A stretch of DNA of 64,000 nucleotides. Origin: Aliiroseovarius sp. S1123 (GTDB taxonomy: Bacteria; Pseudomonadota; Alphaproteobacteria; Rhodobacterales; Rhodobacteraceae). Positions 35,309-40,283 of the stretch are shown here, in pieces (position 1 is the first letter of the stretch; every line of letters begins with the position of its first letter). The DNA lies in the NCBI RefSeq assembly GCF_023015885.1, contig NZ_JALKBE010000001.1, positions 620,001 through 684,000 of the forward strand, given 5' to 3'. A program made the position numbers and the translations under genes. The notes under the pieces are model-generated. The model ran no database searches. It had not been told where the DNA came from and saw only the letters and a program-made list of their open reading frames with translations.

Positions 35309-36694
35309 TTAGGCCGCTGAACGCCCGAAGGTCACCACGTTGCGGCCGTCCGATTTCGACGCATACAGCGCTTGGTCAGCAGACCGCGTCAGCTCATGCG
35401 CGCTGCGCGTGTCATGTGGTTGATCTCCCCAAACCGCAACGCCAACAGACACCGTGACCGGGACCGGAAAAGTGGTCTCGGCGACATAGATCGGCTGATC
35501 TCCTATGGCGCGGCGCAGACGTTCCGCCATGGCCATCACGTCCTTTTGGCTGACATCGGGCAGGGCAACCATGAACTCCTCGCCGCCAAAACGCGCCAGA
35601 AGGTCAAACTCGCGTAGATTGTCGCGCAGGCGATTTGCGACCTCGATCAACACCTGATCGCCAACCCCATGTCCGAACCGGTCATTGATGGATTTGAAGT
35701 GATCCAGATCCAGCACCATGATCGCATAGGGCTGCCCGTTGGTTAGGGCCTCTTGTTCCAACCGGTTCAGATAACTTTGCGCATAGCGGCGATTGTGCAG
35801 CCCGGTCAAAGGATCCTGTACCGCCAGTGACAAGTTGTGATCAAAGCGTTTGCGCAGGGCGTCCAGTTCCAGCTTGCGCGCCAGAAGGGTTTTCAAACGC
35901 ACGGCAAGTTCGGTCGCATCGAACCCACAATGCAGAATTGCGTCAGCCCCCAGATCCAGCGCCATTGCGCCGTCATGGGGGCGGTCGCGATCATGGATAA
36001 CCACAATAATCGCATTTCGCGTATGCACACGAGAGCGTAGCTCGCTGACCAATCGCAGACCGTCTGATTCCCCGGCCAATGACGCGCTGATGACAAAGGC
36101 ATCGGGGGCATTGCTGTTCGTGTTCACGTCGCTCAACGCCTGCGATTTCGTCATGATATCAAGACGGTGCGGAAGCTCAAGCCCAAGCTTTCGGCGCCAC
36201 AAAAGCCCGTGTTCCGGCTCTGGCGCAACAAGGGCGATATGGGCCGCGGGGACAAAATTTGCCGCATCCTCGGCACAGCCAAACTCGGCCGAGATGTCGC
36301 GATGGCGCATGATCTCATCATATGTTCCGCGCATGCGGATCAGGTTTCGCACCATAGCAGACAGCGTGCTTTCTTTCACATCCGGGGAATAAACATCATC
36401 CGCGCCTGCTTCCAAAGCGGCAATCCGGGTATTTTGGCTGTCCTTATCCGCAAACAGGATAACCGGAATGGTGTGCAGGTTCGCGTCCTTCTTCAAGGCG
36501 TCGCAGATCGCCAGACTTTGACCAGATTGCCCACGCCCTAAGATGATTAGGTCAGGCTGCGCCCGCCGCGCTGTGTCCAGCACGTCGTCGATCCGCTCGA
36601 CCTGAATGACATCATACCCCGATACGGTGAATTTCACCTTCAGGACGATGCGATTGGTCGCAAGATCGTCTGCTATCAATATCCTTCCGCTCAT
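35309..36694 (-). CDS. PleD-like diguanylate cyclase with degenerate receiver domains
   Basis: 461 residues arranged like PleD: receiver domain 1 (about 3-120), receiver-like domain 2 (about 150-275) and a GGDEF domain (about 295-455). The active motif is GGEEF at 370-374, with an RxxD inhibitory site at 361-364 (REFD), so cyclic-di-GMP synthesis and product inhibition look intact. Receiver 1 keeps Asp9-Asp10 and the Lys of FADKDS, but the phospho-acceptor position in LIILGRG is Gly53 instead of Asp; receiver 2 also lacks an acceptor. Control by phosphorylation is therefore unlikely. Confidence 0.9.
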   Translation of the reverse strand: MSGRILIADDLATNRIVLKVKFTVSGYDVIQVERIDDVLDTARRAQPDLIILGRGQSGQSLAICDALKKDANLHTIPVILFADKDSQNTRIAALEAGADDVYSPDVKESTLSAMVRNLIRMRGTYDEIMRHRDISAEFGCAEDAANFVPAAHIALVAPEPEHGLLWRRKLGLELPHRLDIMTKSQALSDVNTNSNAPDAFVISASLAGESDGLRLVSELRSRVHTRNAIIVVIHDRDRPHDGAMALDLGADAILHCGFDATELAVRLKTLLARKLELDALRKRFDHNLSLAVQDPLTGLHNRRYAQSYLNRLEQEALTNGQPYAIMVLDLDHFKSINDRFGHGVGDQVLIEVANRLRDNLREFDLLARFGGEEFMVALPDVSQKDVMAMAERLRRAIGDQPIYVAETTFPVPVTVSVGVAVWGDQPHDTRSAHELTRSADQALYASKSDGRNVVTFGRSAA

Positions 36695-37849: not shown

Positions 37850-37867
37850 CGTCACTGTGAAGTGACG
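37850..37867 (+). promoter_or_regulatory. Hairpin just before the H-NOX start
   Basis: CGTCACT (37850-37856), loop GTGA, AGTGACG (37861-37867): a perfect 7-bp stem ending 6 bases before the preferred ATG at 37874. It covers the region where a ribosome-binding site would lie, which could limit translation. Confidence 0.5.
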
Positions 37868-37873
37868 CGTGTG

Positions 37874-38470
37874 ATGATGATGCATGGCCTGATTTTGTGG
37901 ATATTCGAAGCATTTGTACGCCTGACCTATGGGGATCAGGTGTGGGAGAAGGTTCTGACGGATCTGGATCTCCATGTGCAGTCAGTCGAGCCGATGTTTC
38001 ACTATGATGTTCAGATTGCCCTTTCAATTTTAAGGCAACTATCGATCGAGCAACGTCGGGATCGGAATTCATTGCTCGAAGACTTTGGAACATTCCTTGT
38101 GACCGATCCGCGTGTCGAACGGGTGCGACGCCTGCTCCGGTTTGGCGGCGTGGAATACACCGACTTTTTGCATTCTCTGGAGGATCTTAAAGGGCGTGCG
38201 CATCTTGCGGTGCCTGACTTGACCTTGCCTGATATCCTCGTGGACGAGGTTAGTCCGCATGTCTTTGAAGTTACGTGTGAAAATAGCCCCAAAGGTGTTC
38301 CATATGTCCTGTTGGGTGCTTTGCGCGCATTGGCGGACGATTACGGTTCGCTTGCCTATCTCGACGTGATGTCAGAGCGCGAGCACAGTGTTGTTATCTC
38401 TGTCAGTTTGTTGGAGCGGCAGCATGCTGAAGGGCGGGAGTTCCTCTGGGCGACGGATGGTGCCTCATGA
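37874..38470 (+). CDS. H-NOX (heme NO-binding) domain protein with a non-canonical heme pocket
   Basis: A 198-residue single-domain protein beginning MMMHGLILWIFEAFVRLTYG, typical of H-NOX, with LRRLLRFGG and YTDFLHSLEDL preceding the heme-ligand position. There the proximal histidine is replaced by Lys106, and the YxSxR propionate-binding motif is replaced by Cys135-x-Asn137-x-Pro139. A histidine one helix turn later (His110) or His100 could substitute. Its stop overlaps the start of an H-NOXA/GGDEF gene, so the pair forms a signalling unit. Whether it binds heme is doubtful. An upstream GTG at 37862 is an alternative start. Confidence 0.85.
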   Translation: MMMHGLILWIFEAFVRLTYGDQVWEKVLTDLDLHVQSVEPMFHYDVQIALSILRQLSIEQRRDRNSLLEDFGTFLVTDPRVERVRRLLRFGGVEYTDFLHSLEDLKGRAHLAVPDLTLPDILVDEVSPHVFEVTCENSPKGVPYVLLGALRALADDYGSLAYLDVMSEREHSVVISVSLLERQHAEGREFLWATDGAS

Positions 38471-39480
38471 ATATCGAACGTCCTATTCCCTTTACCTGCG
38501 GCGCCTTAGACCATGTCCTTCCCATGCATTTGATTATTGACGGGTCTGGCGTGGTACGGCATGCGGGGCCAACGATCAAAAAGGTTTTCAATAATCGCAA
38601 GGTCATTGGGCGGAACGTGTTCGGCCTGCTTGAACTCAGACGGCCCAGAAGCATCACGCGGATCGAAGACGTCGCCAAGATTGATACCAGGCGCGTGCTG
38701 CTGAAAATCCGGGATCAATACCGCACGTCGCTGACCGGCGCGGTGACTGTGATGCCTGATCTAGATAGTGTGCTGCTTAATCTGTCCTTTGGCTACTCCA
38801 TTTCCGAAGCGGTGGCGCGGTATGAACTGACAGGAACAGATTTCGCGCCGACTGATCTGGCGATCGAGATGCTGTATCTTGTGGAAGCGAAATCTGCGGT
38901 GATGGATATTGCCAGCCAGCTGGCACATCGGCTTCAGGATGAAAAAGAAATCGCGCAGTCGCAAGCAATGACGGATGGATTGACCGGGTTGGCCAATCGG
39001 CGCGCGCTTGAAACGCGCTTGGAAAGGCAGTCCATGCGTAGGGTGCCATTCTCGCTGATGCATCTCGATCTGGACTTTTTCAAATCGGTCAATGACACAC
39101 ATGGTCACGCGGCAGGGGACGCCGTTCTTGAAGCCGTTGCAGAGATCCTTCGGGAAGAAACACGAAAGGAAGACCTTGTGGCGCGCGTAGGGGGGGACGA
39201 GTTCGTGATAGTCTTGGACAATCAGGTCTACCCTTCGCGGCTTGAAAAGATATCGGCGCGTTTGATCAAGCGGATCGAAGAGCCAATCCTGTTCCAGGAC
39301 CGCGAATGCCATGTGTCGGCCAGCATTGGTGTTGTGCCGTCAACCAACTATGCGACGCTGGATCATGCTTTGATGGCCGAAGATGCGGACAAAGCGCTCT
39401 ACGCATCGAAACACGCTGGGCGGGCAGCGTATACGATCGCGGAAAGCTCAGTGATGGATGGCAATTCTCTGATTGATTGA
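38467..39480 (+). CDS. Diguanylate cyclase with N-terminal H-NOXA (PAS-like) domain
   Basis: A 337-residue cytoplasmic protein. Residues about 10-130 form an H-NOX-associated PAS-like domain of the type found in soluble guanylate cyclases (LPMHLIIDGSGVVRHAG, VIGRNVFGLLELRRPRSI). A helical linker (about 137-170) leads to a GGDEF domain with MTDGLTGLANRR, active motif GGDEF at 242-246 and an RxxD inhibitory site at 233-236 (RKED). It overlaps the H-NOX gene by 4 bases. It is likely the output partner of the H-NOX protein, making cyclic-di-GMP. Confidence 0.9.
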   Translation: MNIERPIPFTCGALDHVLPMHLIIDGSGVVRHAGPTIKKVFNNRKVIGRNVFGLLELRRPRSITRIEDVAKIDTRRVLLKIRDQYRTSLTGAVTVMPDLDSVLLNLSFGYSISEAVARYELTGTDFAPTDLAIEMLYLVEAKSAVMDIASQLAHRLQDEKEIAQSQAMTDGLTGLANRRALETRLERQSMRRVPFSLMHLDLDFFKSVNDTHGHAAGDAVLEAVAEILREETRKEDLVARVGGDEFVIVLDNQVYPSRLEKISARLIKRIEEPILFQDRECHVSASIGVVPSTNYATLDHALMAEDADKALYASKHAGRAAYTIAESSVMDGNSLID

Positions 39481-39980: not shown

Positions 39981-40055
39981 TGGCAGCCCGTAGGGGAATC
40001 GAACCCCTCTTTCCAGGTTGAAAACCTGGCGTCCTAACCGATAGACGAACGGGCC
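39981..40055 (-). tRNA. tRNA-Glu (anticodon TTC), copy 1
   Basis: A 75-base cloverleaf on the minus strand with CCA encoded. Acceptor stem GGCCCGT/ACGGGCT; anticodon arm CCAGG-TTTTCAA-CCTGG with anticodon TTC; T-arm GAGGG-GTTCGAT-TCCCCT. It is identical in sequence to the copy at 40209-40283. Confidence 0.97.
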
Positions 40056-40208: not shown

Positions 40209-40283
40209 TGGCAGCCCGTAGGGGAATCGAACCCCTCTTTCCAGGTTGAAAACCTGGCGTCCTAACCGATAGACGAACGGGCC
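40209..40283 (-). tRNA. tRNA-Glu (anticodon TTC), copy 2
   Basis: A second 75-base tRNA-Glu gene identical to copy 1, with the same TTC anticodon and encoded CCA, 153 bases upstream of it on the same strand. The spacer between the copies is not repeated, so only the tRNA gene itself is duplicated or gene-converted. Confidence 0.97.

Follow-up and report, generated by a model that had tools for sequence, protein, structure and literature searches.

The classical H-NOX proteins are switched by nitric oxide (NO), which breaks the bond between a proximal histidine and the heme iron. Helix F and the two subdomains then move about two glycines, as described in PMC7108781 and PMC12329717. The locus described here raises the question of what an H-NOX protein does when this histidine is missing. 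It lies in the window, i.e., the whole 64,000-nucleotide stretch analyzed, taken from a contig of Aliiroseovarius sp. S1123 (NZ_JALKBE010000001.1, positions 620,001 to 684,000), a member of the Rhodobacteraceae.

The H-NOX gene and its partner cyclase

The initial annotation, made from the letters of the DNA, called an H-NOX protein here and paired it with an H-NOXA diguanylate cyclase. Both calls hold (Table 1). The H-NOX protein matches Pfam HNOB (PF07700) at 59.2 bits (cut-off 25.5, E 6e-16), and this is the only PF07700 match in the window genome. Based on an AlphaFold model (pLDDT 87.7), the protein is predicted to have the H-NOX fold of the PF07700 family. The best Foldseek match of the model is Nostoc H-NOX (E 8.7e-11). 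Structure comparison gives Z ~20, and comparison with structures of Nostoc Alr2278, Shewanella oneidensis SO2144, and sGC beta1 gives Z values of 12 to 21, most of them ≥17. NO-activated sGC beta1 (Z 21.3, rmsd 2.0, 178 residues) and the unliganded form (Z 20.3) are nearly tied.

The H-NOX reading frame has ATG codons at 37874, 37877, and 37880 and a GTG at 37862, and its stop codon ends at 38470. The consensus of its relatives begins M-H-G, making the ATG at 37880 the family-consensus start, and the GTG is also possible. The nearest named relatives are from Aliiroseovarius, and the four nearest (L053-L056) are 86-90% identical to the window protein. Of six dN/dS comparisons of the gene, the four with close relatives give values of 0.038-0.065, and the other two are saturated.

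The partner cyclase matches HNOBA at 28.4 bits (cut-off 23.4) and GGDEF at 138.9 bits (cut-off 23.8). Its model shows an N-terminal domain set apart, followed by a long helix (residues 131-167 of the model) and a GGDEF domain. GGDEF matches took up the structure matches listed for the N-terminal domain, and a search of PDB sequences with the N-terminal stretch returned only matches of E 0.32 or worse. Across the partners, the cyclase motifs are kept: GGDEF in 366 of 367 and RxxD in 362 of 367.

Another GGDEF protein, which also matches receiver domains, is encoded ~1.2 kb from the H-NOX gene (35309-36694, minus strand). Receiver-bearing cyclases are also described in D. shibae (Dgc2, PMC7232146) and P. 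denitrificans (DgcB, PMC5588039). Just past the partner cyclase are two tRNA-Glu (TTC) genes on the minus strand (39981-40055 and 40209-40283), with 153 bases between them.

Table 1. Positions in the window of the H-NOX gene, its heme-related sites, and the partner gene
Feature	Positions	Strand	Basis
H-NOX-fold protein, Group 5 type by sequence, 198 aa	37874-38470	+	HNOB match and alignment
R85-R86-L87-L88-R89	38126-38140	+	Conserved in subfamily rows
His100 codon (FLHSL)	38171-38173	+	His in 215/339 subfamily rows
Lys106 codon, proximal heme-ligand position	38189-38191	+	Alignment
His110 codon, proposed replacement ligand	38201-38203	+	His in 9/339 rows
Cys135-x-Asn137-x-Pro139, where YxSxR is expected	38276-38290	+	Alignment
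Diguanylate cyclase: HNOBA (HNOXA), long helix, GGDEF	38467-39480	+	Pfam and model; start overlaps H-NOX stop by 4 bp

Loss of the heme-ligand residues

The register of the window protein against heme-binding H-NOX domains was taken from two alignments. In phmmer alignments with Nostoc Alr2278 (4iah and others), 'DLKGRA' pairs with 'NLHARV' and 'VTCENSPKG' pairs with 'LHYQSTRAG'. This places Lys106 at the proximal His and Cys135, Asn137, and Pro139 at the Tyr, Ser, and Arg of the YxSxR motif. The register is the same in a multiple alignment that includes 38 rows of other H-NOX proteins, most of them Rhodobacteraceae paralogues; these rows have the proximal His in 37, the Tyr in 38, the Ser in 37, and the Arg in 37. 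The placements given in the initial annotation were thus right to the residue. It had named a profile alignment with a histidine at the proximal position as a result that would speak against it, and the alignment, once run, put Lys106 there instead. An alignment slip was rejected because the two alignments agree and because 43 of the 44 positions that are hydrophobic in ≥90% of the 38 other H-NOX rows stay ≥80% hydrophobic in the subfamily.

By this alignment, both the proximal His and the YxSxR motif of the classical heme-based NO/O2 sensors are absent from the window protein. Compared with Alr2278, SO2144, and sGC beta1, the window protein shares the fold, Gly72, Gly148, and Pro119 but has neither the proximal His nor YxSxR. 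It contains a single Cys, and the three-Cys zinc site of the V. cholerae type was not found in it.

His110 had been suggested as a substitute ligand, one helix turn after the proximal position, and this part of the initial annotation was not supported. His occupies that column in 9 of the 339 rows of the subfamily alignment, and two of these 9 are the window protein, which was entered twice (as WIN and L001). The four named relatives closest to it have Arg there; a conserved substitute role was rejected on these grounds. His100 is found six residues ahead of the proximal position and is also present in rows where the proximal His is retained.

Distribution and linkage in Rhodobacteraceae

The family sample is composed of 394 genomes of Rhodobacteraceae in the broad sense, approximately one per genus. 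PF07700 matches 297 of them. With a profile (A1) built on the window protein together with 73 relatives, 287 of these 394 genomes give a match at E 1e-15, in two cases through a classical H-NOX, and ~72% of the sample carries a member. Among 385 genomes drawn from the class, A1 has 10 matches at E 1e-5, five in the same family and five with weak scores. Scores with the subfamily and classical profiles part cleanly (380 vs. 40 hits). Three hits, with scores <40 bits apart, come from genomes outside the family, and each favors the classical profile.

Residues were counted in 276 of the 287 A1-matching family genomes. Left out were G024 and G314, whose only match has the score of a classical H-NOX, and nine genomes with fragments or interrupted genes (G050, G056, G081, G196, G240, G291, G307, G364, and G380). 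The proximal residue is Pro in 201 genomes, His in 21, Arg in 12, Gln in 11, Asn in 7, Ala in 6, Ser in 5, Gly in 4, Glu in 3, Lys in 2, Thr in 2, Asp in 1, and Tyr in 1. The proximal His is therefore missing in 255 of the 276 genomes with a counterpart. Within the window's genus (21 genomes), the residue is Lys in 8, Arg in 5, Pro in 4, Ser in 3, and His in 1, and Lys is found in 10 of the 339 subfamily rows. Loss of the proximal ligand, as read from these alignments, marks the subfamily as a whole and is not an isolated oddity. The initial annotation had asked whether the substitution defines a subfamily: the ligand loss does mark one, but Lys does not define it, Pro being the common residue.

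Members of the subfamily are tightly linked to their partner. Where the sequence extends 700 bases or more past the H-NOX stop, an HNOBA-GGDEF gene is directly downstream of the H-NOX gene in all 293 numbered genomes and at all 72 named loci, two sets that share members. Among classical H-NOX loci, 2 of 40 have such a partner. A classical H-NOX co-occurs in 0 of 21 His-type genomes vs. 30 of 255 others (p = 0.14), based on 42 classical H-NOX genomes read by eye.

Three further observations concern individual genomes. G266 has two subfamily copies (L177 and L384), both with Pro at the proximal position. L110 (CP059262.1), titled as an Exiguobacterium profundum MAG, encodes a 44% identical subfamily H-NOX with the same partner, and the title looks wrong. 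An in-frame stop is present in the H-NOX gene of at least five family genomes (G056, G196, G216, G291, and G317), reflecting either sequencing error or recent loss.

Conservation and evolution of sites

The subfamily has near-fixed residues of its own. R85 is found in 336, R86 in 338, and R89 in all 339 of the subfamily rows, and conservation of these arginines does not extend to the other 38 H-NOX rows. The residues that are near-fixed in the subfamily only are R85, R86, R89, F98, R108, D155, D156, and Y157. Gly72 and Gly148 are present in every one of the 339 subfamily rows and the 38 further H-NOX rows; judged by where they align, they are probably the published hinge. Because the hydrophobic positions and Pro119 (338 of 339 rows) are kept, the H-NOX fold and core appear to persist while the heme ligands do not.

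Site rates follow the same division. R85, R86, R89, F98, P119, D155, and G158 do not exceed the 6th percentile, whereas the proximal position is at the 43rd and the YxSxR sites are at the 54th, 80th, and 93rd. The commonest Cys column is that of Cys135, which replaces the Tyr of YxSxR (192 of 339 rows). It is frequent but far from fixed, as is Cys13 (99 of 339 rows).

The His state is scattered over the gene tree, slightly clustered and not quite random. It takes 18 changes to account for 21 rows, where shuffled states average 20.6 and 1 of 200 shuffles is as low; these counts are approximate, given the weak support of the tree (53 of 373 inner branches starred). The slight clustering of the His rows may mean that the His is retained for a reason. 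A three-state fit on this weakly supported tree gives an ancestral proximal state of His 0.45, other 0.54, and Pro 0.01.

Nitrite reductases and the proximal histidine

NirK and NirS were searched in 80 genomes, composed of the 21 His-type genomes and 59 random others. NirK is present in 3 of 21 His-type vs. 9 of 59 other genomes (p = 1), NirS in 10 of 21 vs. 13 of 59 (p = 0.047), and either enzyme in 12 of 21 vs. 22 of 59 (p = 0.13). Over the whole family sample, NirS is present in 10 of 21 His-type vs. 43 of 255 other genomes (p = 0.002), in a test that is partly post hoc, having been picked after the 80-genome comparison. A tree-matched test gives 7 vs. 2 discordant pairs (p = 0.18). Set against their 5 or 10 nearest non-His rows for NirS, 10 His rows are above and 11 below, and a treekit test on supported branches yields only 4 pairs.

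In the window's genus, NirS is found in 14 of the 20 genomes searched and His in 1 of 20. A tie between loss of the His and loss of denitrification is an unproven hint: the signal does not survive tree matching, and most NirS genomes of the genus are without the His. Within G000-G020, NirS is present in 2 of 8 Lys genomes (one only 56% complete) vs. 12 of 13 others. The Lys rows are close relatives, and this rarity of NirS probably reflects few independent events. Neither NirK nor NirS finds a match in the window genome at E 1e-40, so NO from denitrification is not an evident signal there.

Relationship to known H-NOX proteins

The subfamily is already in print as Group 5 in the review of Lee-Lopez and Yukl 2022 (PMC8738867). 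As described there, <10% of Group 5 proteins have the His and most have Pro, no Cys is conserved, and the hinge glycines are kept; how such proteins sense is posed as a question. The census agrees with this description, and by sequence the window protein is a member. The subfamily has His in 21 and Pro in 201 of 276 genomes, no fixed Cys, Gly72 and Gly148, and an adjacent cyclase gene.

Group 5 includes Paracoccus denitrificans Pden_3719, which is likewise without the proximal His, has Pro in its place, and has no conserved set of Cys residues. It shares with the window the conserved glycines and the neighboring GGDEF cyclase gene. Its relationship was judged by profile and tblastn: the subfamily profile gives the P. 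denitrificans protein (L429) 179 bits, and the window protein is 36.7% identical to the P. denitrificans H-NOX over 84% of the query. Strain HAMBI_2443 has Pro at the proximal position, whereas the window protein, ~37% identical to Pden_3719, has Lys. Kumar and Spiro (PMC5588039) note that the proximal His is missing in P. denitrificans, as in R. sphaeroides, for which they cite Iyer 2003. They report that an hnoX mutant is partly biofilm-deficient, lacks BapA, and consumes NO faster, while a dgcAB mutant has the opposite phenotype and overproduces biofilm. Their proposal is that H-NOX, driven by NO, inhibits DgcA. In a 2025 study of P. denitrificans (PMC12582929), c-di-GMP is said to have escaped measurement, so that the NO/DgcA proposal gained no support from c-di-GMP levels.

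Dinoroseobacter shibae belongs to the minority with the proximal His. Its genome was recognized among the numbered ones by 100% identity to its plasmid pDSHI01 over 2001 bases. The single PF07700 match of this genome, presumably the Dshi_2815 gene of PMC7232146, belongs to the subfamily, has His at the proximal position ('DLHDR'), and retains the Arg of YxSxR. It has the same downstream HNOXA-GGDEF cyclase (Dgc1) as the window and has also lost the Tyr and Ser of YxSxR. Unlike the window protein, which has neither the His nor the Arg, the D. shibae H-NOX is described, at second hand, as inhibiting Dgc1 upon NO binding (PMC7232146, PMC8846402).

Two other systems are similar in part. Heme-independent signaling by an H-NOX has a precedent in the Zn/Cys redox switch of V. 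cholerae, as described in PMC7108781 and PMC8738867. This heme-free H-NOX signals without heme, as the window protein may, but its zinc-site Cys residues are impossible with the single Cys of the window protein.

The second system is sGC alpha, where the H-NOX fold is likewise found inside a cyclase complex. The H-NOX domain of the sGC alpha subunit is not known to bind heme. Unlike the window protein, it belongs to a single long chain and has a heme-bearing beta partner, while PF07700 matches the window genome only once.

Proposed function and alternatives

The Group 5 protein is probably a dedicated regulator, most likely an inhibitor, of the HNOXA-GGDEF cyclase encoded by the overlapping gene, and would act without the His-iron-NO switch. 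The basis by sequence is the lost ligand set, the strict pairing, the purifying selection, and the retained cyclase motifs of the partner. Published work on a Pro-type relative adds the opposite biofilm phenotypes of the hnoX and cyclase mutants (PMC5588039). In the proposed mechanism, the H-NOX protein would contact the cyclase, probably at the HNOBA domain, and restrain it. The regulator would be heme-free or indifferent to heme and either constant or responsive to another signal. Inhibition would need no NO, unlike in the proposal of PMC5588039. For the window protein, we infer direct contact with the cyclase, inhibition, and the absence of bound heme.

With Lys106 at the proximal position, the window protein cannot use the His-iron switch unless this Lys or another residue ligates the iron. 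Heme ligation by Lys or His occurs in other proteins, and the window protein could bind heme through another ligand. Heme could thus still be bound through Lys106, His110, His100, another residue, or with no axial ligand, and NO or CO be sensed. The kept hydrophobic core and Pro119 are in line with this, as are the sister proteins with His, which include the reported NO sensor of D. shibae. No alternative ligand is conserved, however (His110 in 9, His100 in 215, Lys106 in 10, and Cys135 in 192 of 339 rows), the YxSxR motif is lost as well, and the proximal residue takes many forms, all of which make retained heme sensing unlikely. Because 21 of 276 genomes keep the His and because of the D. 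shibae report, some members may still be heme-based NO sensors. Alternatively, the pocket or the subfamily arginine cluster might bind a different small molecule, making the protein a non-gas sensor built on the H-NOX fold. This tentative possibility is compatible with regulation of the cyclase, to which it adds a trigger. Residues near-fixed in the subfamily only, found alongside the loss of the heme motif, and purifying selection speak for it. The same residues could instead form the cyclase interface, and the ligand is purely hypothetical.

A Cys/zinc redox switch like that of the heme-free V. cholerae H-NOX has virtually no likelihood and was rejected: the precedent of PMC7108781 and PMC8738867 is for heme-independent signaling, but one Cys cannot make up a three-Cys site, and the column richest in Cys has it in 192 of 339 rows. 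The interrupted copies in at least five genomes would suit a decaying remnant without function. The low dN/dS, the near-fixed residues, the invariable pairing, and the spread over ~72% of the family sample argue against decay, as does the mutant phenotype reported for P. denitrificans (PMC5588039); on selection and mutant data decay was rejected as very improbable. The preferred reading is that of a cyclase regulator operating without the classical switch.

Significance

Relative to the openly licensed literature searched, what is new here is the family-wide census, the unbroken linkage to the partner, the near-fixed arginine and DDYG residues, and the D. shibae protein as a His-keeping exception. 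Members of the subfamily are called heme-NO-binding from their fold, yet 255 of 276 are without the ligand. The NO sensor of D. shibae belongs to the small His minority, and its behavior is not to be carried over unchecked to the rest.

A possible, still speculative history is that an ancestral heme-based NO sensor became, in most Rhodobacteraceae, a heme-free sensor of another signal. This signal would be read by the empty pocket or by RRxxR/R108/DDYG and would tune c-di-GMP through the linked cyclase, with the His minority as remnants of the old state, or returns to it, that still respond to NO. A single genus provides natural Lys, Pro, Arg, Ser, and His variants on which the question of what Group 5 proteins sense can be put to the test.
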